DNA of 39,575 nucleotides from Candidatus Methanoperedens sp. (lineage in GTDB: Archaea; Halobacteriota; Methanosarcinia; Methanosarcinales; Methanoperedenaceae). Below the pieces are notes generated by a model. It searched no databases and was not told the origin of the DNA. It saw only the letters and a list, made by a program, of their open reading frames with translations. The stretch covers positions 1 to 39,575 of the forward strand of contig JAPMTS010000041.1 of assembly GCA_026552955.1 (NCBI GenBank), read 5' to 3'. Numbering within the stretch: position 1 is the stretch's first letter; each line of letters starts with the position of its first letter. Both the position numbers and the translations under genes were made by a program. Of the stretch, positions 5,272 to 27,291 are shown one piece after another.

Positions 5272-7914
5272 TTACAATAAAATATGAAATGTACTCCCCC
5301 TATTTTTACTTTCCGCCCATATTCTACCACCATGCGCTTCGATAATTTTCTTTGATATCCATAAACCCAATCCTGTACCCTGGAATTTTCGTTTGTTTGA
5401 TGAATCCACCTGGTAGAACCTGTCAAATATCCTTTCAATCCTGTCTTCAGGAATACCAATCCCTGTATCACTGATCATAATATGGACTTTTCCGTCTTCT
5501 ATATCTCCTTTAATAATTATCTCACCTGTAATGGTAAATTTAATGGCATTTTCCACAATATTTGAAAATACCTGCATCAAACGTTCATTATCCCCTTCAA
5601 CTACGAGATTATCCTGAATATCAATGGATATAGGTATATTCTTGCTGGATATGATATTCTTCATATCATCAACCACAGTATTTATCAGTTCATTTATAAT
5701 CACAGTTTCTTTTGTGAGCTGGAGATTACTGGATTCGATTATCTGGGTATCAAGAAGCGCCCTTATCAACCTGTATAACCGTTTTGAATTCCTTAATATG
5801 ATCTCGGTTTTATGACGTTGCTGTTCTGTCAGGTTCTCATCAAGCATCAATTCAGTGTATCCGATAACCGATGTAAGCGGGGTCCTCAGTTCATGTGATA
5901 TATTGGAAAGGAAATTATCTTTCATCTTGTAGAGTTCCTGAAGTTTTGAATATGTCAATTTAAGTTCTACATAAGAGTCCCTGAGTTCTTCTTCAAGTTT
6001 TTTCTGATTGGATACATCCTTAATAATGGTTATTATTTTTTCGACGCTCCCATTCTTATTCTTGATAGGGATTTTACTTGTACTTGTATAGATTATTTCA
6101 TCATAATATTGTATTTTTTCCTCACTTTGAAATATTTCTCCTGTCTTAATAACATGCTCATAATCCAGATCGATACGTTTCGCGGTAAGGAAGGGATAAA
6201 CATCAAGAAGATTCTTATTCAAAATATCATCTCTTTTGACCATACCTTTCCCAAGTTTTATCAATTCATCATTTACGGAAAGGATTCTGAGATCCCTGTC
6301 TACGACATGTAATGCAAGGTTCACATTGTTCAGGATTTCATCGTTAAATTCTTTGAGGTTTTTTATATTATTATAAAAATTGATGTTCTCTATAGCTACA
6401 CCGATCTGGTTTCCTATGGCTGAGAAAAGTTCTTTATCCCTTCTAGAAAAAACATGTCTTTCCTTGCTGTTGATTGATATTATTCCTAAAACATGGTCCT
6501 TTGATTTAAGAGGAATAATTGCATAAGATATATAATTATCCATTGAGGATTCATTATCCCCTTCTACGGTCAGGACTTCAGTTGTTTTTTTAGGTTCAAA
6601 ATTATCATAACACCCTTCCCGACCCTGATGATTTATCATAGTAAATTGACCGGTTTTTTCATCGAACAGATAAGCTCTCCCACATTCCATATTTGTTAAT
6701 TTCAGTATATTTTTGAGGGATGCGGAAAATATGATATCAATATCGAATGCTTCGCTGATATTTTTTGATATTTCATTGAGCACGGTAAGTTCACGGTTTC
6801 GGGCAATAATTTCATTTTCAAGAATTTTATGGTGTGTTACATCTCTTAGTACCATTATGATGTTTGAATTGCCCTTTTTATCAAGGAAAAGCGATGAGTT
6901 TATATCGAGGATCTTAGTTTTGCCCCTCAATTGGGTCTCATGAAAAAATCGTATCGGCTTTCTTGATTGCATTATTATATTGACCTGGCATTTTTCTTTT
7001 TGTTGTTGTGGGGATAAAGACGGGAAGATCAATTCATGGCATGTTTTTCCTATCACTTCTTTTTCGTTCTTTCCTGTCATCTTCAAAAAAGATCTATTAA
7101 ATTTGATAATTTCATGGTTTGTGTTGATAACAATAATACCGTCTTCAATGTTATTGAACAATGTTTCAAGATAATTCTCGGCATCCTCTCTTTTTTCTTT
7201 TGATGCCAGGAGTTCTTTGATCTTCTGATCCAGGTTAGAAGACATATCATTAAATGTCCTCGCAAGTTCACCCATTTCGTCATTTGAACTTACGTCTATC
7301 TTCTGGTCAAGAATTCCGTTGTTTATTCTTTTTGCCCCTTCATTAAGTCTAAGGATGGGCTCAGTCAATCGTTTTCCTATGAAATAAATGAATATCGTAC
7401 CAAGTATCATAGCTGATATTGCCAAAAATAGGATTTTATGCGACGCCACAAGTATTTTTGCCCTCACGTTGTTCTCGGACAAACCGATATGAACATAACC
7501 AACATTCTTTATCAACGGGGCATCAAACTCATGTATTATTCCCGTTTCTGTCTCCAATATTTCTTCTTTCCTGGAATTTTCAGGTTTTGTACGATTTAAC
7601 AGTCCTTTTGGGAATCCACTCTCAAACGTATGTGTAAGCACGATTCCCTGAGAATCTGTAATAAAAATATATTCGATATCAGGGTAACTTTTCTTTGCAT
7701 TATCCATTGATTTCCTCACTTCAACGATGTCATTTATGAGAAAATTATTTGTTATTTCCGAGGCAAGATTATTTGCCAATAAGAATCCTTCATTCCTGAA
7801 CTCTCCCTCGATTATTCCAACTTGTATGTCCTGAATTACAAAATATGTACCTGACAGGATCAAAAATATAATTGCCAGCATAGAGACAATAATCCTACCA
7901 CGCAAGCTGCTCAT
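5272..7914 (-). CDS. Membrane histidine kinase: sensor-HAMP-PAS-GAF-PAS-HisKA-HATPase
   Basis: An 880-residue kinase. It has a membrane segment at about 7-26, an extracytoplasmic sensor to about 155, a second membrane segment at about 157-177, and HAMP at about 178-232. These are followed by a PAS domain (about 243-365, LFNNIEDGIIVINTNHEI), a GAF domain (about 374-515) and another PAS domain (about 520-640). The HisKA phosphoacceptor His is at about residue 674 in NISHELRTPLTSVIGY. The ATPase boxes follow: N box FSNIVENAIKFT, G1 ISDTGIGIPEDR, F box IFDRFYQV and G2 GTGLGLWISKK. All catalytic elements are intact. The start overlaps the stop of the upstream PhnD-like gene (ATGA), so the two are translationally coupled and the lipoprotein is a likely ligand-binding partner. 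Confidence 0.93.
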   Translation of the reverse strand: MSSLRGRIIVSMLAIIFLILSGTYFVIQDIQVGIIEGEFRNEGFLLANNLASEITNNFLINDIVEVRKSMDNAKKSYPDIEYIFITDSQGIVLTHTFESGFPKGLLNRTKPENSRKEEILETETGIIHEFDAPLIKNVGYVHIGLSENNVRAKILVASHKILFLAISAMILGTIFIYFIGKRLTEPILRLNEGAKRINNGILDQKIDVSSNDEMGELARTFNDMSSNLDQKIKELLASKEKREDAENYLETLFNNIEDGIIVINTNHEIIKFNRSFLKMTGKNEKEVIGKTCHELIFPSLSPQQQKEKCQVNIIMQSRKPIRFFHETQLRGKTKILDINSSLFLDKKGNSNIIMVLRDVTHHKILENEIIARNRELTVLNEISKNISEAFDIDIIFSASLKNILKLTNMECGRAYLFDEKTGQFTMINHQGREGCYDNFEPKKTTEVLTVEGDNESSMDNYISYAIIPLKSKDHVLGIISINSKERHVFSRRDKELFSAIGNQIGVAIENINFYNNIKNLKEFNDEILNNVNLALHVVDRDLRILSVNDELIKLGKGMVKRDDILNKNLLDVYPFLTAKRIDLDYEHVIKTGEIFQSEEKIQYYDEIIYTSTSKIPIKNKNGSVEKIITIIKDVSNQKKLEEELRDSYVELKLTYSKLQELYKMKDNFLSNISHELRTPLTSVIGYTELMLDENLTEQQRHKTEIILRNSKRLYRLIRALLDTQIIESSNLQLTKETVIINELINTVVDDMKNIISSKNIPISIDIQDNLVVEGDNERLMQVFSNIVENAIKFTITGEIIIKGDIEDGKVHIMISDTGIGIPEDRIERIFDRFYQVDSSNKRKFQGTGLGLWISKKIIEAHGGRIWAESKNRGSTFHILL

Positions 7915-8819
7915 TGAACTCTTTTCCTCATTTCCCTGATAGAATCATAAGCATTGTTACCAAGATTAACGAATTTTTCAATCTTTACCCTTGCAAGTAC
8001 TTCCCTTCCCTCCTCATCTTTATCCATATTCAGGAAAATATTTCTGAGTTTTTCTTCCAGGAAAGGATTGATATCTTTAGAAACAACAATCGGTGGGATA
8101 CCAAAAGGTGGTGAGATTTCAATAATTCTCGTTTTTGCTATTATTTCAGGATTTGTTTCCTTCATATAATCATATACAAGGCTGTCAACTGCCGCGCCAT
8201 CTGCAATTTTTTCAGCTACCGCAATAATAGAATTATCATGACTGTATGTGAAAAATGAATTATTCTTTCCCTGTTCATCGACATCAAAGAAAGATCCAGG
8301 CGTCTCGTTCATAAGGTAAAGCCTGTATGTCGGATAAAGTTTTCCCGAATTTGACAGAGGGTCTGAAAAAGCAAATTTTTTGTCACGAAGATCTGATAAA
8401 TTGGTATAGTTGCTATTATTCCGGACAATGATATATGAACGGTACGTTGTATTCCCATTTATTACCGGCGCAACAAGGATCTTCATCCCGAATTTTGAGT
8501 TTCCATCAATGTATGCGCCCCCGCAAACAAAAGCAAAGTCAATTTCATTTTTTTTGATAAGATCATTTATTTCCTGATAACTTCTTCTCTGTATTATCTT
8601 AACATTACCGCCCAGCGATCGCGAAATATATCGGATCATATCTTCATAATATTCATAGGATTCTTTTGGGGAAACAACAGACGCAATTGCCACTTTGACC
8701 GAAGAATCGTTCATTATGGTTTTAGGCTCCTGAACGATATTAAGGTCTATTTTTTCCGTTTTATCAACACATCCCGCTATTAATAAAACCATACAAAATA
8801 ATAGGAATGCATATTTCAT
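7911..8819 (-). CDS. PhnD-type phosphate/phosphonate-binding lipoprotein, no transporter nearby
   Basis: A 302-residue secreted lipoprotein with a type II signal peptide: hydrophobic residues 4-15 and a lipobox L-I-A-G-C17. The rest is a periplasmic-binding-protein-like type 2 fold of the PhnD/SsuA family, with VKVAIASVVSPKESYEYYED at the start of the domain and IDFAFVCGGAYIDG in the first lobe. No ABC permease or ATPase gene adjoins it. Instead it overlaps a histidine kinase. Lone PhnD-like proteins next to sensor kinases are usually read as ligand-sensing subunits, so I infer a sensing role. The ligand cannot be read from sequence and may be an oxyanion. Confidence 0.85.
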   Translation of the reverse strand: MKYAFLLFCMVLLIAGCVDKTEKIDLNIVQEPKTIMNDSSVKVAIASVVSPKESYEYYEDMIRYISRSLGGNVKIIQRRSYQEINDLIKKNEIDFAFVCGGAYIDGNSKFGMKILVAPVINGNTTYRSYIIVRNNSNYTNLSDLRDKKFAFSDPLSNSGKLYPTYRLYLMNETPGSFFDVDEQGKNNSFFTYSHDNSIIAVAEKIADGAAVDSLVYDYMKETNPEIIAKTRIIEISPPFGIPPIVVSKDINPFLEEKLRNIFLNMDKDEEGREVLARVKIEKFVNLGNNAYDSIREMRKRVQ

Positions 8820-9412: not shown

Positions 9413-10855
9413 TTATTTTTTAAATGCTTCCACAAAAGCCTGTGTTGCAAGCTTAATAGGATTTCCGGATAATAAGCCTGAGTATTCACTGAAAGGCAGC
9501 TTGATTTCAGCCCCATTTTTGTGAATAACGATTTCCCTTATCTCCTTATCATGATCGCTTCCTCTCATCTTAAGTACTGATATGGCTTTTCGCATCTCGC
9601 TTTTTATCTCGACATACCTCAAAAGGATGACCGTGTCTAGAAATGGCGATATACCCGTTCCGGTTATCTGCGTTGCCCCAGTCAGGTTTGAGGTCTCATT
9701 GGTATAAACTGCAGTTACTTGCTTATTCTTTAAAATTCTACTGATAGTCCCCATATATTCAGGTAATTGTGCATATTGGGGCAACATCCTCTGGAGTCTG
9801 CCTGTTCCATCCAGCAGTAAACGTTTTGCTTTCATTTCATCAATTGTCTCTTCGATCTGGAGAGCCAGTTCATAAGCATCATATTCCAGAGGAGATAGTA
9901 TTCTCAGGATTTTTTTGTTTTCAAATTCTTCCAGGTTCCAGTTGAACATATTCGAATTTGCACGGATCTGTTCCACGTCCTCTTCAAAGGATACTATAAT
10001 GCCGGGTTCATTTTTTAACAGGCCATCCCTGATGAATTGCGTCCCAAGTATTGTTTTTCCTGTTCCGCTTGATCCGGAGATCAATATTGAAGAGCCTTTT
10101 AAGAAGCCTCCTCCTATCATTTTATCCAGTCCTTTTATTCCGGTTGATATCCGTTCATGGGAAATGGTGGTCATCTCAGTTGCCCGGATCCTGGAATAGA
10201 CATTCAATCCATCTTTGGTTATCTTACAGGAATGCTTGCCCCCCTTGAATTCCTGCCCCCTCATTTTTAAAACGTTCAGGTAACGGATATTATTTTCATA
10301 AAATGGTTCATTGCTGATATAGATCATGCCGTCGACCATATATCCCACTGTACTGTTGATAAGTGCATCCTGGGTAAATTCTCCGGTCAATAGGACCAGG
10401 GAATTCCAACCTTTCATACTTGTGAAAAAATCATAGTAAAATTGACGCTGCGATTCGACATCCTCACCCAGAGCAAATACATTTACTGGATCAATGGCTA
10501 TCCTGTCCGGTTTGATTGTCTCAATATTTCTTTCAATTTCTTTTATGATCGCATCGGAACCCTTGTGGATGGTATCAATACCTATTGGTACATACTTAAC
10601 ATTCCCTTTTCCTAGAAGCGAAATATTATAGAAAGAGAATTTTGACATGAAATTATTTATCATGGCAATAGGCTCGGAAAGTGCGGTTATGTACATGCAG
10701 ATTTCCTCATTTCTTGCGGAGTTAAAAAGCGATTGCATCACCATTGTTGTTTTTCCCGTGCCTGCAGTCCCGGCGATCAATACAATAGAAGGTCTTAGGA
10801 AACCTCCTTCAAGCACCTTGTCAAGACCATTTACTCCTGATTTAACCTGCTTCAT
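9413..10855 (-). CDS. Two-domain KaiC-like RecA-superfamily ATPase
   Basis: A 480-residue protein with two KaiC-type P-loop domains, shorter than cyanobacterial KaiC. Walker A motifs are GTAGTGKTT at 29-37 and GSSGTGKTI at 261-269. Each domain starts with the family pattern G-(V/I)-x-GLDK-(V/M)-(L/I)-x-GGFL. The second domain keeps the catalytic double glutamate (E291-E292 in VSFEEDVEQI). In the first the equivalent position reads ALSEP, so the first Glu is Ser, which suggests a weak or inactive N-terminal ATPase. Archaeal KaiC-like proteins often pair with roadblock/LC7 proteins and two-component systems; here a roadblock gene is upstream and a histidine kinase and receiver are downstream. 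A signalling ATPase is more likely than a clock. Confidence 0.9.
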   Translation of the reverse strand: MKQVKSGVNGLDKVLEGGFLRPSIVLIAGTAGTGKTTMVMQSLFNSARNEEICMYITALSEPIAMINNFMSKFSFYNISLLGKGNVKYVPIGIDTIHKGSDAIIKEIERNIETIKPDRIAIDPVNVFALGEDVESQRQFYYDFFTSMKGWNSLVLLTGEFTQDALINSTVGYMVDGMIYISNEPFYENNIRYLNVLKMRGQEFKGGKHSCKITKDGLNVYSRIRATEMTTISHERISTGIKGLDKMIGGGFLKGSSILISGSSGTGKTILGTQFIRDGLLKNEPGIIVSFEEDVEQIRANSNMFNWNLEEFENKKILRILSPLEYDAYELALQIEETIDEMKAKRLLLDGTGRLQRMLPQYAQLPEYMGTISRILKNKQVTAVYTNETSNLTGATQITGTGISPFLDTVILLRYVEIKSEMRKAISVLKMRGSDHDKEIREIVIHKNGAEIKLPFSEYSGLLSGNPIKLATQAFVEAFKK

Positions 10856-19300: not shown

Positions 19301-19735
19301 TCACCTTGCCACCAGCACCGTGCACTTCGCTTTCCTTACCACGGCTTGCGCCACGCTTCCCAGCTCCGGATTTATCTCGGTCTCACCCTCGCTGCCCATT
19401 ACAATAGTATGCACTTTATGAATACGGGCAGCTTCAAGTATTGCGTGTGAAATAATCTCTGCACGAGCACCCATCCCTGTAATCCGCTGCATGCTGACCC
19501 CGACAAGGATCTTATGGACGTCTATACCCATATCCCCGCCCATTTCCACAACACGTTCCAGAACTTCCTCACCATGTGATACGAGTTCCTCGCGTTCTGA
19601 ATCTTTCTTTGCTACAGCTACATATATGGCAGCCATCCTGATATTGTAGGATTTTGTGATCTTCATGGCTGCGATCTCTGCTTTTCTTCCGCAATCGCTG
19701 CCGTCAGTGGCAAGGAGTATCTCGTAATGCGTCAT
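19301..19735 (-). CDS. Universal stress protein (UspA), last gene of the Hyf-like operon
   Basis: A 144-residue UspA-domain protein with the ATP-binding signature G-x2-G-x9-G-(S/T) in MGSEGETEINPELGSVAQAV and an N-terminal strand EILLATDGSDCGRKAE. It is therefore of the nucleotide-binding type. Its ATG overlaps the stop of the HyfI-like gene by four bases (ATGA), so it is translationally coupled to an energy-converting complex. That linkage suggests it senses or adjusts the complex according to ATP level, which is inference. No membrane segment. Confidence 0.9.
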   Translation of the reverse strand: MTHYEILLATDGSDCGRKAEIAAMKITKSYNIRMAAIYVAVAKKDSEREELVSHGEEVLERVVEMGGDMGIDVHKILVGVSMQRITGMGARAEIISHAILEAARIHKVHTIVMGSEGETEINPELGSVAQAVVRKAKCTVLVAR

Positions 19736-20220
19736 GATCTTACCTCAGTCTTTCTGATCTTTTGCTCCAGTTTCCCAATCGCCACCATGAGTCCGAATAT
19801 CACAGCCTGCGGCCGGGGAGGGCATCCCGGTATATAGACATCCACGGGAATTACCTTATCAACACCCCCCATGCTTGCATAAGTATCTGCGAATATTCCC
19901 CCGTTACATGCGCATGAACCCATTGCAGCTACAAGTTTCGGGGCTGGTGTGGCATTATATGTCTTGAGAAGCGCAAGTTCCATGTTCCGCGTCACGGGAC
20001 CCGTGACAAGAAGCATGTCAGCATGGCGGGGCGAGGCCACAATATGAAGACCGAAGCGTTCTATATCATAAATTGGATTTGAAAGCGAATTCACCTCAAC
20101 CTCACATGCATTGCATGAGCCTGCATCCACCTCGCGGATATGCAGTGATCGCCCGAATATTTTCCTGATCTTATCATTCAGGCGCTGTCCCATTATTTCA
20201 ATTTCATCTTCAACGGTCAT
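19732..20220 (-). CDS. hyfI: HyfI/HycG-like small subunit (NuoB family) with [4Fe-4S] site
   Basis: A 162-residue subunit equivalent to NuoB and to the group 4 hydrogenase small subunit. The cluster ligands are kept: the SCNAC pair region, GSCACNGGIF, and the PGCPP motif near the C-terminus. The segment SPRHADMLLVTGPVTRNME is nearly identical in style to HycG/HyfI. It should carry the proximal (N2-type) cluster that hands electrons to the large-subunit site. It overlaps both neighbours by ATGA junctions, so the operon is tightly coupled. It lacks the extra domains of uptake-hydrogenase small subunits. Confidence 0.92.
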   Translation of the reverse strand: MTVEDEIEIMGQRLNDKIRKIFGRSLHIREVDAGSCNACEVEVNSLSNPIYDIERFGLHIVASPRHADMLLVTGPVTRNMELALLKTYNATPAPKLVAAMGSCACNGGIFADTYASMGGVDKVIPVDVYIPGCPPRPQAVIFGLMVAIGKLEQKIRKTEVRS

Positions 20221-20555
20221 AACTTTCTCCGGATAATGGTGACAAGGTCTTCTTTTGTCAGGGATGCGAGTTCATATTCCTGTGTAAGTTTGACCGCATC
20301 GGATTGGCAAACTTCCTCACACCTTGCGCAGAATATACATCCACAATACGACAATGCAAGCGTCTTTTCATTGTTTTTTTCTGTGATCGTTATAACACCC
20401 GGAGGACAAACCCTAACGCATTCCCCGCAAAACGTGCATTTATCCGATAAAAGCTGCGGCATTCCGCGAAATCCCTCTGGTGCCGCCTCGGGTACATCAG
20501 GATATTTCGTTGTCTGACAGCCGGTCTTAATAGTTTTAATAAGTATTTCAAGCAT
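20217..20555 (-). CDS. hyfH: HyfH-like 2x[4Fe-4S] ferredoxin subunit (NuoI family)
   Basis: A 112-residue ferredoxin-type subunit. Cluster motif one is CTFCGECVRVCP. Motif two is CGCIFCARCEEVC, with an extra Cys. Together they bind two [4Fe-4S] clusters that wire electrons into the small subunit. The start MLEILIKTIKTG at 20553-20555 is chosen because GGTGGT lies just before it and it matches HyfH/HycF beginnings; longer frames run back into hyfG. No formate dehydrogenase or other electron-input gene is nearby, so the donor is unknown, ferredoxin being likely. Confidence 0.9.
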   Translation of the reverse strand: MLEILIKTIKTGCQTTKYPDVPEAAPEGFRGMPQLLSDKCTFCGECVRVCPPGVITITEKNNEKTLALSYCGCIFCARCEEVCQSDAVKLTQEYELASLTKEDLVTIIRRKL

Positions 20556-20563
20556 TTTACCAC

Positions 20564-22138
20564 CTACATATCGTTGCCTGAATAAGATAAGCTCAAGCTC
20601 TTGTTTATGATCGGGAAATCGGGAACGATGTTGTCCAGCACTGCATACTCTATGGAAAGCCAGTTGCAAAAGGAAGGATCACGAACTTTGCATCTTTCGA
20701 TCTTGTTCCCACAGGTCCGGATCCAGTAAATGGTTTCTCCTCTTGGGGCTTCGCAATATCCCAGTGCGTTGCCATCGGGGATATCATCAGCCTTTATACG
20801 TATTTCACCTTCGGGAAGCGACCAGAGCGCCTGTTCAATGAGCGCGATGGATTCACAAACCTCATCTCCCCTTATGATAGTTCTTGCATGCACATCACCG
20901 GCTTTGCTGACAGGCACTTTGAAATTGAATTCCCTGTAAGCCGCATAAGGGTGATCGCGCCTTGTATCCCTGTCGATCCCTGATGCGCGGCCAACAGGCC
21001 CGACCACATGCAATCCCTTTGCAATATCATTGTAGATGCGTCCTGTGGTTTCGATCCTGTCCATAAGGGAGGGGGTCGAAAACAGGAGTCCCATCAATTT
21101 CCTGAAATCCCGCTGAATAACTGATAAGCTAACCAGAATTTCGTCTTTCTTGCTCCCAATATCACGCCGCACGCCTCCGATCGTATTCATTCCCCGGAGA
21201 AGCCTGCTGCCTGTTATACGCTCATTTAATTGCAATACATCTTCCTTGAGCTTATTGGCATGAGCCGCACCGAATGAAAAAGCCACATCTGTCGCTATCC
21301 CTGCGATATCTCCAATATGATTGTATATTCGCTCAAGTTCAAGAAGAATAGTCCTGATATGCTTTGCGCGGGGCGGTATGTCCATACCTGCAATTTTTTC
21401 CATTGCCTGGCAGAATGCAACCGCATGAGCCACAGAATTATCACCGGAAATCCTTTCAGCAAGAAAAACGGCTTTGTCAAGTGAGATGTTCTCAAACAAT
21501 TTCTCCACGCCTTTATGAGTGTAGAAATGCCTTATTTCAAGATTGATTATTGGCTCACCTGCAACGCTGAATCTGAAATGTCCGGGTTCGATGACCCCGG
21601 CATGCACAGGTCCCACGGGTATCTCATACACCCCTTCGCCCTCCACGCGCCTGTAAGCGTATTCACCTTTGATGCGGGGCGGTTTTGTTTTGATATCAAA
21701 ATCCTTTCTGAGGGGATGAACTCCCGCAGGCCAGTCCTCAAAATTCATAAGCCTTCTCGGATCAGGATGGCCCACCGGTATTAAACCGAACATGTCCTGT
21801 ATCTCCCGTTCATACCAGTTAGCAGCGGCCACCTTATTCGTAATGGATGGATATCTTGGATTTTTCCCGTCGATATCAATTCTCAGGATGATAAATGCAT
21901 CTTCCCTGTCAACTGAAAAAACATAATGAATTTTAAAAGAACCCTCTTCTTTGCGTTCATCTGTTGCAAAAATGCAAACCAGCGGTATATCAAGATGATG
22001 ATAAAGATGATCACACATCTTCATGATTATTTCTTTTTTTACAGTGAGATATGTTTCATTTTGTGAAGTGGATACTTCCAAAATATGATTATTATATTCT
22101 TTTGTTATGGATTCTACAATAGCATTCATCACAATCAT
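20564..22138 (-). CDS. hyfG: HyfG/HycE-like fused NuoC-NuoD large subunit lacking the NiFe ligands
   Basis: A 524-residue fusion. Residues 1-160 are a NuoC-like domain (NWYEREIQDMFGLIPVGHPD, then LRKDF). Residues about 175-524 are a NuoD / hydrogenase-large-subunit domain (FYTHKGVEKLFENISLD). In true hydrogenases the N-terminal motif is R-x-C-G-x-C; here residues 229-234 read R-I-S-G-D-N. The C-terminal D-P-C-x-x-C reads D487-P-S-F-C-N492. All four nickel-ligand positions are lost, with one Cys at 491 out of register. The protein therefore cannot hold an NiFe centre. It matches the Ehr class of Hyf-like complexes whose reaction is unknown. There is no C-terminal protease-cleavage extension after the motif. 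Confidence 0.92.
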   Translation of the reverse strand: MIVMNAIVESITKEYNNHILEVSTSQNETYLTVKKEIIMKMCDHLYHHLDIPLVCIFATDERKEEGSFKIHYVFSVDREDAFIILRIDIDGKNPRYPSITNKVAAANWYEREIQDMFGLIPVGHPDPRRLMNFEDWPAGVHPLRKDFDIKTKPPRIKGEYAYRRVEGEGVYEIPVGPVHAGVIEPGHFRFSVAGEPIINLEIRHFYTHKGVEKLFENISLDKAVFLAERISGDNSVAHAVAFCQAMEKIAGMDIPPRAKHIRTILLELERIYNHIGDIAGIATDVAFSFGAAHANKLKEDVLQLNERITGSRLLRGMNTIGGVRRDIGSKKDEILVSLSVIQRDFRKLMGLLFSTPSLMDRIETTGRIYNDIAKGLHVVGPVGRASGIDRDTRRDHPYAAYREFNFKVPVSKAGDVHARTIIRGDEVCESIALIEQALWSLPEGEIRIKADDIPDGNALGYCEAPRGETIYWIRTCGNKIERCKVRDPSFCNWLSIEYAVLDNIVPDFPIINKSLSLSYSGNDM

Positions 22139-23589
22139 CTCACAACAGCTACTACTTTCATGATCATTTCATAAAAAAATGGCGGGATATAGACACCAAG
22201 CACAATTACGAATACCACGAGGATCGCCATTGCCCCGAGCGTCCACCTGCTCATTTCCCCGGGCATTATTCCGGGTTTTGGTGTTCCGAATGTCATGGTA
22301 ACAAGGTTATTGAAAAAACCAGCGAAGATCATTATCATAAATAGAAGGAACAAGACCGACGAAATAATATGCCCCTGCAGGAATCCTGCCGAAAGTATTG
22401 TAAATTCGCTCAAGAAGATACTAAAAGGCGGCGACCCTGTTATGGCAAGCCCCCCAATTAACAGCATTCCACCTGTTGCCGGCATGGATTTAACAATTCC
22501 GCTCACCTTGCTTATCTCTTTTGTTTCATATTTTAGAAGCACATTTCCCGCGCCGAAGAACATGAGTGATTTTGTCATTGCATGGTTGAACATGTGAAGT
22601 ATAGCGCCAAATATCCCGAAAACCCCTCCGAATCCTATACCGAGTGCAATTATTCCCATGTGCTCAACACTGCTATATGCAAGCATACGTTTGTAATCTT
22701 CCTGGAGGATTATGAACGGCACTGCCACGCCAAGTGAAAGAAGCCCGAATATAATGAGGAGGTTGCTCGTAAAATCCACCCCAGTTGACTTTGTTGCAAT
22801 TGTATAGAACCGGATGATGCCATACATGGCGCAGTTCAGGAGAACCCCGGAAAGAAGAGCGCTCACCGGTGTTGGTGCTTCACTATGTGCATCCGGAAGC
22901 CATGTATGCATGGGCGCAAGACCTGCTTTTGTTCCGTAACCTATGAGTATGAAAATGAATGCAAGCTTCATTATGGTAGGATCAAACTGGCCTGCAACTG
23001 CAATCAATGAAGTCCAATTAAGTGCATCCCCGGTTTCCCCAAGAATCTTTACGGCGGCATAATAGGTAAGTATCGTGCCAAAAAGGGCAAAGGTTATACC
23101 AACCGTACATATGATCATATATTTCCAGGCGGCTTCAATAGAGGATTTTTTGGTATAAAGGATCATGAGGAGTGCTGAAACAAGCGTTGTCATTTCGATG
23201 GCGATCCACAGGCCAAGGTTATTGGTGACGCCAACAAGAAGCATCGTGAACATGAAGATATGGAAAAGGACATAATATATTTTCAATTTTTTCAAATCCA
23301 TTATCCCATGTTTGAATTCATGCCCCATGTAGCCGATTGAATAAACCGAAGCTACAAAGCCCACGATTGACACAATAAGAACAATGAAGGCGCTAAACGC
23401 ATCAGCAAAAAGGGCATTTGTCCATGATATTATGACACCTTGACGGTACACGTTTTCCACCAATATCAAACCGATAACAAGGGTAGCGATAGAACCTGTA
23501 AGACTTACCGCTTCGACCTCTTTCTTTGATCGTGTAAAAAAGCATAAAATGCCCGTCAATATCGGAGCAATGAGAAGATATTCGATCAT
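22135..23589 (-). CDS. hyfF: HyfF-like proton/cation antiporter subunit (NuoN/MrpD family)
   Basis: A 484-residue membrane protein with about 14 helices in the Proton_antipo_M family. Key charged residues of the pump path are visible: the Glu in LWIAIEMTTLVSALLM, the Lys in GYGTKAGLAPMHTWLPDAHS, and the Lys-Arg in EDYKRMLAYSSVEHMG. Gene order after the HyfE-like gene and before the large subunit matches hyfF of formate hydrogenlyase-4. It is one of only two antiporter-like subunits here; a hyfD counterpart is missing. Its stop overlaps the hyfG start. Confidence 0.92.
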   Translation of the reverse strand: MIEYLLIAPILTGILCFFTRSKKEVEAVSLTGSIATLVIGLILVENVYRQGVIISWTNALFADAFSAFIVLIVSIVGFVASVYSIGYMGHEFKHGIMDLKKLKIYYVLFHIFMFTMLLVGVTNNLGLWIAIEMTTLVSALLMILYTKKSSIEAAWKYMIICTVGITFALFGTILTYYAAVKILGETGDALNWTSLIAVAGQFDPTIMKLAFIFILIGYGTKAGLAPMHTWLPDAHSEAPTPVSALLSGVLLNCAMYGIIRFYTIATKSTGVDFTSNLLIIFGLLSLGVAVPFIILQEDYKRMLAYSSVEHMGIIALGIGFGGVFGIFGAILHMFNHAMTKSLMFFGAGNVLLKYETKEISKVSGIVKSMPATGGMLLIGGLAITGSPPFSIFLSEFTILSAGFLQGHIISSVLFLLFMIMIFAGFFNNLVTMTFGTPKPGIMPGEMSRWTLGAMAILVVFVIVLGVYIPPFFYEMIMKVVAVVR

Positions 23590-23593
23590 AGTA

Positions 23594-24253
23594 TCAACCT
23601 ATCAGGGTTTTTAGCATGTCAGTATCTATGCTCTCAAATGTCTTGTTTATCCTGAAAATCAGGATCCCCATGATGAGAACGCCGATCAGGACATCGAAGA
23701 ATATTCCGAGTTCAACAAGGAGAGGCATTCCATTTGTCAACGATATTGCACCGAGAAAAAGACCATTTTCCATTACCAGTATGCCAAGCATCTGCATAAG
23801 GGCTTTTTTCCGGCTTATCATAATAAAAAGCCCGATAGACACAAGCGACACGGATGCTGAAAGAGCTAAACTTGAAAGTTCTGAAATGATACTGATGGAT
23901 CGAATAAGATAATATGAAATCACGACAAGGATCCCACCAATGATTATTGAAGGCGATATAGTGACATAAAGTTCCACTTCCCTTTTGACCTTGATCTCAC
24001 GGATGATGTAAATAAAAATATATGGTATGACCGCTGATTTTATGATAAGGGTCAGGAGGGCAACAATATAAATATCATATTTTCCCGTTGAATATGCCAC
24101 AATGCCGGCGACAAATGCAAGAAGGAACGATTGTATACCAAAGGCCCTTACACATGAATAAAGCCTTGTTGAACCAAGGATCATAAAAGTCGAAACAAGA
24201 ATGAACGCTATTAATAATTGCATTATCTTTGATCCGAAAATAACTTCTGACAT
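23594..24253 (-). CDS. hyfE: HyfE-like membrane subunit
   Basis: A 219-residue protein with about six or seven helices, of the HyfE family, which looks like a fusion of NuoK- and NuoJ-like parts (NuoK-type helix around YVTISPSIIIGGILVVISYY and MQMLGILVMENGLFL with the conserved Glu). Length equals that of HyfE. It provides part of the ion-translocating membrane chain between the antiporters. It is separated from its neighbours by only a few bases. Confidence 0.88.
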   Translation of the reverse strand: MSEVIFGSKIMQLLIAFILVSTFMILGSTRLYSCVRAFGIQSFLLAFVAGIVAYSTGKYDIYIVALLTLIIKSAVIPYIFIYIIREIKVKREVELYVTISPSIIIGGILVVISYYLIRSISIISELSSLALSASVSLVSIGLFIMISRKKALMQMLGILVMENGLFLGAISLTNGMPLLVELGIFFDVLIGVLIMGILIFRINKTFESIDTDMLKTLIG

Positions 24254-24256
24254 TTT

Positions 24257-25201
24257 TTATCCTCCTTTTACTATAATAAATGAAACGAGGGCCAGGAATG
24301 AAAGCATGAGAGATATTGACAGCAATTCAGGTAACCTGAATAATCTCCATTTTGCGGTTGAGGTTTCAACGACTGCCATCGATATTCCGATAACCAGGAT
24401 CTTTATCACAAAAACCAGAAAAGACAGGACCAATGCTGATGCACCTGCTCCCTGTGAAGCTATGCCCCAGGGGAAAAATATGTTCGCAAGCAATGAAAAA
24501 ATAAGCAATTGCTTTATCATTGCCCCCAGTTCCATGATCGCCAGTTGTCTTCCGGAATATTCCAGGATCATTGCTTCGTGGATCATGGTGAGTTCAAGAT
24601 GTGTAGCCGGATTATCTACAGGGATGCGGCCTGTTTCAGCAATAGCGATAATAAAAAGAGCAACAAATGCCAGTATCTGGTATGGTGACATGGCATCGAT
24701 ACCCATGCCTGATACGGTCTGTGAAATGAATCCCAGGTTCGTGGAGCCCACATTGAGTGCGACTGCAAATATGGAAAGCATTAAAGCCGGTTCCACTAAA
24801 GCCGCAATGAACATCTCACGGCTCCCGCCCATCCCGCCAAAAGAACTTCCCGCATCCAGCGAAGCAAGGGCTGTAAAAAACCTGGCAAGTGCAAATAGGT
24901 AAATAACCGCGATCAGGTCTCCTGCAAAACCAAGCGGGAGTTGTGTTATGTATATCGGGATCAAAAGACCTGCCGCAAGTACGGCTGCAAAGGAAATGAT
25001 AGGTGCGGCATGAAATATCCAGGACACATTATTTGAAATAACAGAATCTTTTTTAACCAGTTTAAGGAGATCATAATACGGCTGCAGGATGCCCGGACCT
25101 TTTCTTATCTGGAAAAAAGATTTTACCTTTTTAATAATTCCGCTAAGCAACGGTGCAAGGATAATGATAAGAAATGTCTGGAAAATCAATTGTATGATCA
25201 T
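24257..25201 (-). CDS. hyfC: HyfC/HycD-like membrane subunit (NuoH family)
   Basis: A 314-residue protein with eight or so helices, equivalent to NuoH/HyfC, which couples the peripheral arm to the membrane arm. The conserved loop IRKGPGILQPYYDLLKLVKK and the acidic PVDNPATHLELTMIHEAM with its E-L-T-M-I-H-E pattern are both clear. Its start overlaps the upstream HyfB-like stop (TAATG). All residues expected for the quinone-like or coupling cavity at the NuoH/NuoD interface appear to be kept, so the loss of nickel affects chemistry and not coupling. Confidence 0.93.
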   Translation of the reverse strand: MIIQLIFQTFLIIILAPLLSGIIKKVKSFFQIRKGPGILQPYYDLLKLVKKDSVISNNVSWIFHAAPIISFAAVLAAGLLIPIYITQLPLGFAGDLIAVIYLFALARFFTALASLDAGSSFGGMGGSREMFIAALVEPALMLSIFAVALNVGSTNLGFISQTVSGMGIDAMSPYQILAFVALFIIAIAETGRIPVDNPATHLELTMIHEAMILEYSGRQLAIMELGAMIKQLLIFSLLANIFFPWGIASQGAGASALVLSFLVFVIKILVIGISMAVVETSTAKWRLFRLPELLSISLMLSFLALVSFIIVKGG

Positions 25202-27225
25202 TAGCTTCCTCCTGCTATAATAAACATGAATAGAATTACCAATATCCCGAAGATATAACCCAGATATGCATGAATACTTCCTGTCTGGATAACTTTGGCC
25301 TTTCTTGACATGGCCATGACAAAATCAACCACTGGCGTGTAAAAATTCTTTTCAAATACCTGTTCTATTTCGGATTTAAACTTAAATGATTCCTTAAGAT
25401 ACTGGGAGGAATATGTTACTTCCATTTCCCGTGCGGGACGATATAAGCCTTTAAACCACATCTGTACCGGTTTTGAGAAAGCGATTGCAGAATATTCGTT
25501 CCTTGCTGTTGAAAAGGGCTGGCCGCATCCCCATGTTTCATAGACAGGCATATTCCTCTTACTGGTAAATAAGATAATTATGGGTATAAACATAAGAATT
25601 AATACTATTGCAAGAAGCCCGGGTGTTGAAATTGATATCCATGCGGAAGAGGGGATAGAGATCGTCCCGAAAGTGCCAAATGAAAACGATTGGCCGCTTG
25701 TCCCGATAAAGGATGCTGCGATCCTATCAAGCATGGGAAGTATGAATGCTGGTAAAATCCCAAGCATTATTGATAATAATGCAAAAAATCCCATTCCGGC
25801 AAGCATTGGAATATTCACTTCTCTGGCATGTTGTGCATTTTCACTTCTGGGAAGAGCAAGGAACACCATCCCGAAAAACTTGAGGAAACAATAAGCAGCA
25901 AGTGCCCCGGTCAGGGCAAGAACAGCTGCACTGATGGATAACATGATAATGGCAAAATTGCTATCTAAATTAAAAGTCAAAAGCAAAGACTGGAATGTCA
26001 GCCACTCGCTCACAAAACCACTAAATGGCGGCATGGCTGAAATTGATAATACGCCAATTAGTATAAGAATAGCGCTAAATGGCATTCTCTTGATCAAACC
26101 CCCCAGTTTTTCGATATTTTTTGTGTGGGTTGAATATAATAGGGAACCTGCACCCATGAAAAGCAAACCCTTAAAAACAGAATGATTCAACAGGTGATAT
26201 AGTGCAGCCATCATTGCTATTGCACTGAGAATGGGTTTTTCGTTTGATAAAAAGATCATGGAAGCGCCAAGACCGATAAGGATGATGCCAATGTTTTCTA
26301 TGCTGCTGAATGCAAGCATTCTTTTCATATCCGGTTCCACAACTGCGTATAATATACCAAGGATTGCCGATATTGTGCCTACTGCCAGAACACTATAGCC
26401 CCACCATGCCTGGCTTGCTCCAAGGAAATCAAAAGATATCCTGATAAGCATAAAGATCGCGGTTTTTATCATTACACCTGACATCAACGCAGAAACATTA
26501 CCAGGTGCAGCCGGGTGGGCGTAAGGAAGCCATATATGAAAAGGGACGATACCAGCTTTTATTCCAAAACCGATGAATGCAAACAGAAATGCACTGTCTT
26601 TAAGAAACGGCGTCATAGTCGAGCCTGCAGCGCGGAATGTTTCAAAACTGAAACTTCCTGATGTGCCCGCAAAGATCAAAAAGGACAGGATAATGAAACC
26701 TGTTCCGATGTGGGTCATGACGATATAAAAAAAACCGGCTTTTCTTGTTTCTATTTTTTCATGTTCGTAAACGACAAGGAAAAAAGATATCACGGACATT
26801 AATTCCCATACTATCAGGAACATTATGGCATTATTTGCGCAAATGACAAGGATCATCGAAAGAATGAACATGTTATACAGGAAACAAAGATAGCCAATAT
26901 TTTTCTTCCCAAAATATTCTCTAACATATCCTGTTGAAAATATAGATACGGCAAATACTGATATTGATATTACAAGAATAAAAAAAGCCGATAGTTTATC
27001 AATAAAAAATCCAAACTCCGGGATTTGGCCTTCGTTGAGAATAAAATGAAATGTATCGCCCAAAATCACTGATAGGGAAAAGGCAAATCCTGCAAGCGCC
27101 CCTATTGATGCACTCAAAAACGAAATATATGAGCATAGGGCGTCTTTTTTATTAAATACCAGTGCTGATACTGCCCCAAGCAAATAAAAAGCAACAAATC
27201 CAATAAATAAATAATTATCTACCAT
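25201..27225 (-). CDS. hyfB: HyfB-like proton/cation antiporter subunit (NuoL family)
   Basis: A 674-residue subunit of the NuoL/HyfB type with about 16 membrane helices. Pump-path residues: the Glu in LIVWELMSVISFFLVVYEHE, the Lys in GFGIKAGIVPFHIWLPYAHP, and MKRMLAFSSIENIGI. A C-terminal extension (MPVYETWGCGQPFSTARNEY and the last helix) is typical of HyfB/HycC. It is the first gene of the operon. I chose the ATG at 27223-27225 over the GTG two codons upstream because TCTGGTG lies just before it. Confidence 0.92.
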   Translation of the reverse strand: MVDNYLFIGFVAFYLLGAVSALVFNKKDALCSYISFLSASIGALAGFAFSLSVILGDTFHFILNEGQIPEFGFFIDKLSAFFILVISISVFAVSIFSTGYVREYFGKKNIGYLCFLYNMFILSMILVICANNAIMFLIVWELMSVISFFLVVYEHEKIETRKAGFFYIVMTHIGTGFIILSFLIFAGTSGSFSFETFRAAGSTMTPFLKDSAFLFAFIGFGIKAGIVPFHIWLPYAHPAAPGNVSALMSGVMIKTAIFMLIRISFDFLGASQAWWGYSVLAVGTISAILGILYAVVEPDMKRMLAFSSIENIGIILIGLGASMIFLSNEKPILSAIAMMAALYHLLNHSVFKGLLFMGAGSLLYSTHTKNIEKLGGLIKRMPFSAILILIGVLSISAMPPFSGFVSEWLTFQSLLLTFNLDSNFAIIMLSISAAVLALTGALAAYCFLKFFGMVFLALPRSENAQHAREVNIPMLAGMGFFALLSIMLGILPAFILPMLDRIAASFIGTSGQSFSFGTFGTISIPSSAWISISTPGLLAIVLILMFIPIIILFTSKRNMPVYETWGCGQPFSTARNEYSAIAFSKPVQMWFKGLYRPAREMEVTYSSQYLKESFKFKSEIEQVFEKNFYTPVVDFVMAMSRKAKVIQTGSIHAYLGYIFGILVILFMFIIAGGS

Positions 27226-27229
27226 AATC

Positions 27230-27291
27230 ACCAGAAATTATTATTGCCAATTTAATGACCACCGGAAATTATTATTATCATTTTGATGAAC
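27230..27291. repeat. Imperfect 31-base tandem repeat in the hyfB leader
   Basis: Two copies, 27230-27260 (starts ACCAGAAATTATTATT) and 27261-27291 (starts ACCGGAAATTATTATT), differ at a few bases. Read leftward, each carries a GGTG-type ribosome-binding sequence, so the copy nearer hyfB supplies the real site and the other a decoy or spare. Confidence 0.7.

Follow-up and report, generated by a model that had tools for sequence, protein, structure and literature searches.

An Ehr-family operon without nickel–iron ligands in Candidatus Methanoperedens and its possible role in ferredoxin oxidation

Energy-converting hydrogenase-related (Ehr) complexes have been described in Nitrospira, Riflemargulisbacteria, and other lineages, and their function was termed unknown as late as 2025 (PMC12342949; PMC10284858; PMC6349859). 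In Candidatus Methanoperedens, Arshad et al. (2015) described an “Ech hydrogenase lacking EchD” from BLZ, with a low expression of 52–80 reads per kilobase per million mapped reads (RPKM), as one possible ferredoxin oxidiser (PMC4683180). A 2017 review pointed out that both CxxC motifs are missing from the BLZ protein and that it cannot act in hydrogen metabolism (PMC5371075), but a 2022 comparison still counts Ech as present in the anaerobic methanotrophic archaea of group ANME-2d (PMC9012536). Ferredoxin oxidation was treated without this complex in a 2020 family study (PMC7327174) and in a 2022 metabolic model (PMC9024614), and a 2026 paper sends ferredoxin through F420 and Fqo (PMC13079737). 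The operon is labelled “Ech hydrogenase” in one model and omitted from others. Here, we analyzed an operon of this kind in the window, i.e., the whole of contig JAPMTS010000041.1 (39,575 bases) from an assembly of Candidatus Methanoperedens sp. (2.48 Mb, 95% complete; G000 below). It occupies positions 19301–27231 of the minus strand, in the order hyfB-C-E-F-G-H-I followed by a universal stress protein (Usp) gene. An original prediction, made from the window alone, had described it as a Hyf-like operon of an archaeon bearing methyl-coenzyme M reductase (MCR), and the gamma subunit of MCR is indeed encoded in the same assembly.

The large subunit and its family

Judged by its sequence, the complex encoded by the operon is a member of the Ehr family and not a hydrogenase. 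The central observation is the loss of all four nickel ligands from the large subunit, which we located by alignment with 73 relatives. The relevant features are as follows.

20564–22138, minus strand: large subunit HyfG, a fusion of NuoC-like and NuoD/HycE-like parts, 524 amino acids, without Ni-Fe ligands
21437–21454, minus strand: site L1, R229-I-S231-G-D-N234 in place of R-x-C-G-x-C, by alignment with HycE/HyfG
20567–20599, minus strand: site L2, S-L-S-L-S518-Y-S-G521-N-D-M in place of S-L-D-P-C-Y-S-C-T-D-R of HycE, by alignment
20663–20680, minus strand: D-P-S-F-C-N (residues 487–492), not a ligand site, by alignment

Site L1 aligns exactly with R-V-C-G-I-C of Escherichia coli HycE and HyfG, with the first ligand cysteine (C1) replaced by Ser and the second (C2) by Asn, as had been predicted. 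The prediction had also read D-P-S-F-C-N as the remnant of D-P-C-x-x-C, but this was misplaced: its counterparts are R-A-A-T-Y-A-N-W in HycE and S-P-S-F-C-N in the FqoD encoded by the same genome, and the third and fourth cysteines (C3 and C4) correspond to S518 (bases 20585–20587) and G521 (bases 20576–20578). Site L2 comprises the last eleven residues of the subunit, which ends three residues beyond G521. The claim that every Ni ligand has been lost therefore stands, but by way of S231, N234, S518, and G521. Among the 31 aligned family sequences, S231, G232, D233, S518, Y519, and G521 were identical in all, and N234 in 30.

Pairwise ratios of nonsynonymous to synonymous substitution rates (dN/dS) were about 0.03–0.18 over all eight operon genes, indicating purifying selection. 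The gene order B-C-E-F-G-H-I-Usp was the same in all Methanoperedens loci with sufficient flanking sequence, in two genomes of a neighbouring family, and in the covered part of a named ANME-2 locus (L039). Sequencing error was rejected because of these dN/dS values and the identity of S231, S518, and G521 in all 31 sequences; pseudogene decay was rejected on the dN/dS values and the conserved synteny. We also looked for four conserved cysteines elsewhere in the subunit and rejected an alternative four-Cys Ni site, because too few cysteines are invariant: in Methanoperedens only C42, C243, C483, and C491 are so, and across Ehr only C243 and C491 are nearly so, which leaves no Ehr-wide replacement site.

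The C-terminus agrees with this picture. In E. coli, HycI cuts HycE after Arg537, the R of C-T-D-R, and frees a 32-residue assembly peptide (PMC7654741); the C-terminal tails that we measured in HycE and HyfG were 32 residues each. The Methanoperedens subunit stops at the equivalent of this cut point and has no C-terminal assembly peptide, so no such processing would be needed. E184 is kept and is the apparent equivalent, by motif alignment only, of the proton-reducing Glu of the membrane-bound hydrogenase MBH (MbhL E21). An AlphaFold (AF2) model of the subunit had a predicted local distance difference test score (pLDDT) of 82 and a predicted template modelling (TM) score (pTM) of 0.86, and its best PDB match was the large subunit of E. 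coli formate hydrogenlyase (7z0s_E; TM scores 0.92/0.90). Since residues 156–209 and 518–524 had pLDDT < 50, the model was used for the fold and not for the cavity geometry.

In a maximum-likelihood tree, all Ehr sequences formed one clade (support 100/100, branch 1.28), which was placed next to HycE/HyfG of E. coli and distant from Fpo/Fqo/Nuo; the bacterial Ehr sequences in this tree came from plasmids only and are a thin sample. This position outside HycE/HyfG and complex I, the absence of CxxC motifs, and the presence of Mrp-like antiporter Lys/Glu residues bear out the assignment to Ehr. The closest named relatives of the operon were found in Ca. Methanoperedens FeB_1 (large subunit 94% identical), LFW-24, METP1, BLZ2, and others, which marks the source as an ANME-2d archaeon; a search of viral contigs found no relatives.

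From its genomic context, the complex is independent of hydrogenase maturation. The Ehr large subunit is encoded in 29 of the 31 Methanoperedens genomes and HypD in 9, and 21 genomes have Ehr but no HypD. HypD was not found in G000 or BLZ2. The only proteins of G000 that matched the Complex1_49kDa/NiFeSe_Hases models were the Ehr large subunit and FqoD, i.e., this search revealed no [NiFe] hydrogenase. Conversely, one genome of the genus (G024, 99% complete) has HypD and no Ehr large subunit, and may show what replaces Ehr.

Electron route, pumping arm, and candidate acceptor

The remaining genes of the operon are listed below.

25201–27231, minus strand: HyfB-like antiporter subunit, 676 amino acids (NCBIfam hydrogenase 4 subunit B, E = 5e-212)
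24257–25201, minus strand: HyfC/NuoH-like membrane anchor, 314 amino acids (PF00146, E = 2.7e-46)
23594–24253, minus strand: HyfE-like membrane subunit, 219 amino acids (NCBIfam hydrogenase 4 membrane subunit, E = 8e-26)
22135–23589, minus strand: HyfF-like antiporter subunit, 484 amino acids (NCBIfam hydrogenase 4 subunit F, E = 6.5e-165)
20217–20555, minus strand: HyfH/NuoI-like ferredoxin subunit with 2×[4Fe-4S], 112 amino acids, start ATG at 20555 (Fer4 matches)
19732–20220, minus strand: HyfI/NuoB-like small subunit (PF01058, E = 3e-33)
19301–19735, minus strand: universal stress protein, encoded by the final gene of the operon (PF00582)

Profile matches thus recovered all of the hyfB/C/E/F/G/H/I-like genes that had been predicted, and the cluster cysteines, NuoH-like charged residues, and antiporter Lys/Glu residues said to be kept are indeed present. 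HyfH has two complete [4Fe-4S] motifs (C40, C43, C46, C50 and C73, C76, C79, C83), conserved with HycF/HyfH. The proximal [4Fe-4S] ligands of HyfI (C36, C39, C103, C133) are conserved in all Methanoperedens relatives, with the hydrogenase-like CxxC, two residues between the cysteines, and MBH-like spacing. In the membrane arm, the conserved residues are E143, K225, K256, K354, and E409 of HyfB (start codon GTG at 27231 or ATG at 27225); R33, E137, E189, D196, E203, E209, E214, K267, and E279 of HyfC; K72, E162, and E181 of HyfE; and E132, K221, K300, and K340 of HyfF.

The earlier gene list had overlooked the Usp gene and a second type of HyfB. The Usp gene (dN/dS 0.03–0.10) is found at this position in every Methanoperedenaceae locus with sufficient flanking sequence and in L039, L078, and L079. 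Outside these loci, Ehr has a Usp gene as its neighbour in a Methanocella-like genome (L068:11641-12123) and on a Paraburkholderia plasmid (L091:12679-13173), and this recurring neighbourhood suggests a functional link. The second-type HyfB occurs in every Methanoperedens genome tested, so that the two antiporter subunits of the operon may not be the whole set; the prediction of only two such subunits is correct for the operon but not for the genomes. In some genomes, the second-type gene is next to the Ehr operon, at times directly upstream of it, in others it is a solitary gene elsewhere, and in G014 it is the only hyfB of the operon. In G000, it is a partial gene at the end of contig C22 (G000:C22:13-369), and further copies are at L160:5945-7996, L161:6253-8286, and L085:2008-4086. 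The copy in BLZ2 retains each of the 15 residues that were checked, and some 2.5 kb downstream in that genome there is a cluster resembling 2-oxoacid:ferredoxin oxidoreductase genes.

The intact HyfH motifs and the four HyfI cysteines point to an electron route that leads from ferredoxin to the upper end of the old active-site chamber. Reduced ferredoxin would feed the two [4Fe-4S] clusters of the HyfH-like subunit, and from there electrons would move on to the HyfI-like subunit, whose proximal [4Fe-4S] cluster is situated above the vacated Ni-Fe chamber. In the chamber, they would reduce something other than protons, in Methanoperedens most likely menaquinone, and the potential drop would power ion export through the HyfC/E/F/B membrane arm. 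From the conserved pump residues together with the intact cluster wiring, we infer coupling of ferredoxin oxidation to ion export. We consider it highly probable that the complex translocates ions, probable that ferredoxin is its electron donor, and likely that it runs in the direction of ferredoxin oxidation with ion export. The assignment of menaquinone as the acceptor is plausible but somewhat more doubtful than not. We rate the overall description, a reductase that is no hydrogenase, takes its electrons from ferredoxin, translocates ions, and has menaquinone as its leading acceptor, at about an even chance.

This description is supported by the near-invariant non-Cys residues at the Ni-Fe ligand positions, by the missing assembly peptide, and by the lack of HypD and RnfD in G000; no match to RnfD (PF03116) above the cut-off was obtained in any of the 31 Methanoperedens genomes. 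G000, BLZ2, G014, and G022 all carry genes for menaquinone biosynthesis (PF02621), and complex I, in which a vacated chamber is able to take quinone, provides a precedent. Furthermore, the fate of ferredoxin in Rnf-less Methanoperedens is a published gap (PMC7327174; PMC4683180). Several points weigh on the other side. His38 and Tyr87 of Nqo4 have roles in quinone head-group binding in complex I (PMC7684303), and in the alignment their equivalents are absent from the Ehr large subunit, in which G232 stands in place of Tyr87 and no His aligns with His38; the FqoD of the same genome has both, within T-H-G and L-D-Y. Because these two residues are missing, menaquinone is the leading but an uncertain acceptor. 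A Methanocella-like homologue (G067) keeps HyfH and HyfI in a genome without menaquinone genes, the expression of the BLZ “Ech” is low (PMC4683180), and two genomes of the neighbouring family carry both Rnf and Ehr. In addition, we found no biochemical evidence for any Ehr in the open-licence PMC literature. The ferredoxin input and ion pumping of the original prediction are the natural reading of the conserved parts; the acceptor is less secure. Strict complementarity of Rnf and Ehr was dropped as proof of role, because G034 and G046 carry both; the pattern may reflect one ancestral event.

Alternative readings and the split within Ehr

The strongest alternative retains the same wiring and pump but has a small soluble compound (polysulfide, disulfide, or another) reduced in the old cavity, as in the membrane-bound sulfane reductase MBS. 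The absence of the quinone head-group residues and the redox-competent homologue in G067, whose genome lacks menaquinone genes, would both suit this reading, and the chamber of MBS reduces sulfane sulfur (PMC7684303). However, the hallmark of MBS is a three-Cys proximal cluster with a shortened loop, whereas four cysteines with a hydrogenase-like CxxC are found here, and the equivalent of MbhL E21, lost in MBS, is kept in Ehr as E184 (motif alignment only). We regard a soluble acceptor as unlikely, though credible.

An improbable variant is reverse flow, in which ion influx would drive menaquinol- or thiol-dependent ferredoxin reduction for biosynthesis. Complex I-like pumps are reversible, and anabolism requires low-potential electrons; nevertheless, methane oxidation yields reduced ferredoxin at the formyl-methanofuran step, and no feature of the operon indicates reverse flow. 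The low reported expression (PMC4683180) would fit this variant.

The next alternative is that the complex is in practice no redox enzyme but an ion transporter or a Usp-linked regulator with a merely redox-sensing Fe-S chain, which may also apply to the cofactor-free Ehr of methanogens. In our sample of the phylum, 39 of the 393 genomes had a strong match, most of them Ehr. We presume these to include Methanosarcina-type, Methanomicrobiales-type, and Methanocella-like groups. In the Methanosarcina- and Methanomicrobiales-type small subunits (L044-L067, L069-L077), G-S-D-N-x-x, G-D-[DE]-A-C, and G-[ND]-P-P replace G-S-C-N-x-C, G-S-C-A-C, and G-C-P-P, i.e., all four proximal-cluster cysteines are gone. 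No HyfH gene was found in the operons of these types that were examined, and their large subunits also lack Arg229 and His238, with the antiporter and NuoH-like residues kept. These Ehr have thus lost all metal-ligating cysteines that were examined, those of the Ni-Fe site included; they appear to be free of redox cofactors, and would be ion transporters or regulators. Such relatives, and the fixed Usp gene, lend this alternative some support, but all 12 Fe-S cysteines of HyfH and HyfI are conserved in Methanoperedens, which is hard to explain without electron transfer, and we consider it slightly more improbable still.

The wired form is not confined to Methanoperedens: the Methanocella-like Ehr also keeps the ferredoxin subunit and the proximal cluster, and in G067 the two are fused in one gene with intact cysteines (L068:10847-11587), a natural fusion that supports direct electron transfer between HyfH and HyfI. 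In five bacterial plasmid operons (Rhizobium, Methylovirgula, Rhodococcus, Paraburkholderia, and Azospirillum), the small-subunit cysteines are retained but a HyfH gene is lacking. One methanogen-type large subunit (L066; G098:C4:4370-5866) retains a Cys as its first ligand residue (S-I-C-G-D-E) and is a possible intermediate. The order of the tree suits a stepwise loss, with bacteria thinly sampled. A scheme from a wired form through a HyfH-less form to a redox-free transporter, with the Methanoperedens form as the missing ferredoxin:menaquinone pump, is tentative and rather doubtful. Lastly, a working Ech-type [NiFe] hydrogenase, which the HycE-like fold and sequence and the name Ech (PMC4683180; PMC9012536) would favour, is refuted by S231, N234, S518, and G521 at the ligand positions, the lack of an alternative Cys cluster, and the lack of HypD in G000 and BLZ2, and can practically be discarded.

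The core point is not new, because the loss of the CxxC motifs was published for BLZ1 in 2017 (PMC5371075). The split between wired and cofactor-free Ehr is apparently new, and we found no description of it in open-licence PMC papers. How Ca. Methanoperedens re-oxidizes ferredoxin during methane oxidation without Rnf or a hydrogenase is the question on which the operon bears, as a candidate that is near-universal in the genus and under selection. If ferredoxin-driven ion pumping is true, models of the energy yield of nitrate- and metal-dependent methane oxidation will need revision. The cofactor-free sister complexes could uncouple a complex I-like pumping arm from redox chemistry, and Methanosarcina is genetically tractable.

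Two other regions of the window (minus strand) may be mentioned. At 5272–8819, a phosphonate-type periplasmic binding protein gene adjoins a PAS/GAF sensor histidine kinase gene, possibly forming an extracellular ligand sensing pair, and 9413–10855 encodes a KaiC-like tandem ATPase of 480 amino acids.

Comparison with known systems

E. coli hydrogenase-4 and formate hydrogenlyase (Hyf/Hyc) share the subunit set with the Methanoperedens complex, with large subunits that are 34–36% identical and similar in fold (TM about 0.9), but the latter lacks the Ni-Fe ligands, the assembly peptide, HyfA/HycB, HyfD, HyfJ, and the protease. MBS/MBX, the sulfane reductase of Pyrococcus, is likewise related to MBH, linked to ferredoxin, and degraded at its Ni-Fe site; however, it has lost two of the Ni-Fe cysteines, whereas the Methanoperedens Ehr has lost four and keeps E184 and a four-Cys proximal cluster. 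The three-Cys cluster and shortened loop that define MBS (PMC7684303) differ from the C36-x-x-C39, C103, and C133 found here. Fpo, Fqo, and complex I have also lost the Ni-Fe ligands and conserve the pump arm and a NuoC/D-like fold, but Ehr forms a separate clade and lacks His38/Tyr87, the adjacent Cys-Cys, and an F420 or NADH module.

A close likeness is to Ehr of Nitrospira, Riflemargulisbacteria, and bacterial plasmids, which shares the hyfB-C-E-F-G-I core and a HycE-like large subunit without CxxC; in most of the Ehr sequences examined, L1 reads S-G-D-x and L2 reads [SN]-Y-[SA]-G. The Methanoperedens operon includes a dedicated HyfH and a Usp gene; HyfH is missing from the five plasmid operons. 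The “Ech hydrogenase” of BLZ (PMC4683180; corrected in PMC5371075) is evidently the same operon in another species of the genus, with no essential difference: identity to the BLZ2 orthologue is 88%, and the BLZ2 genome lacks both HypD and any further candidate for group 4.

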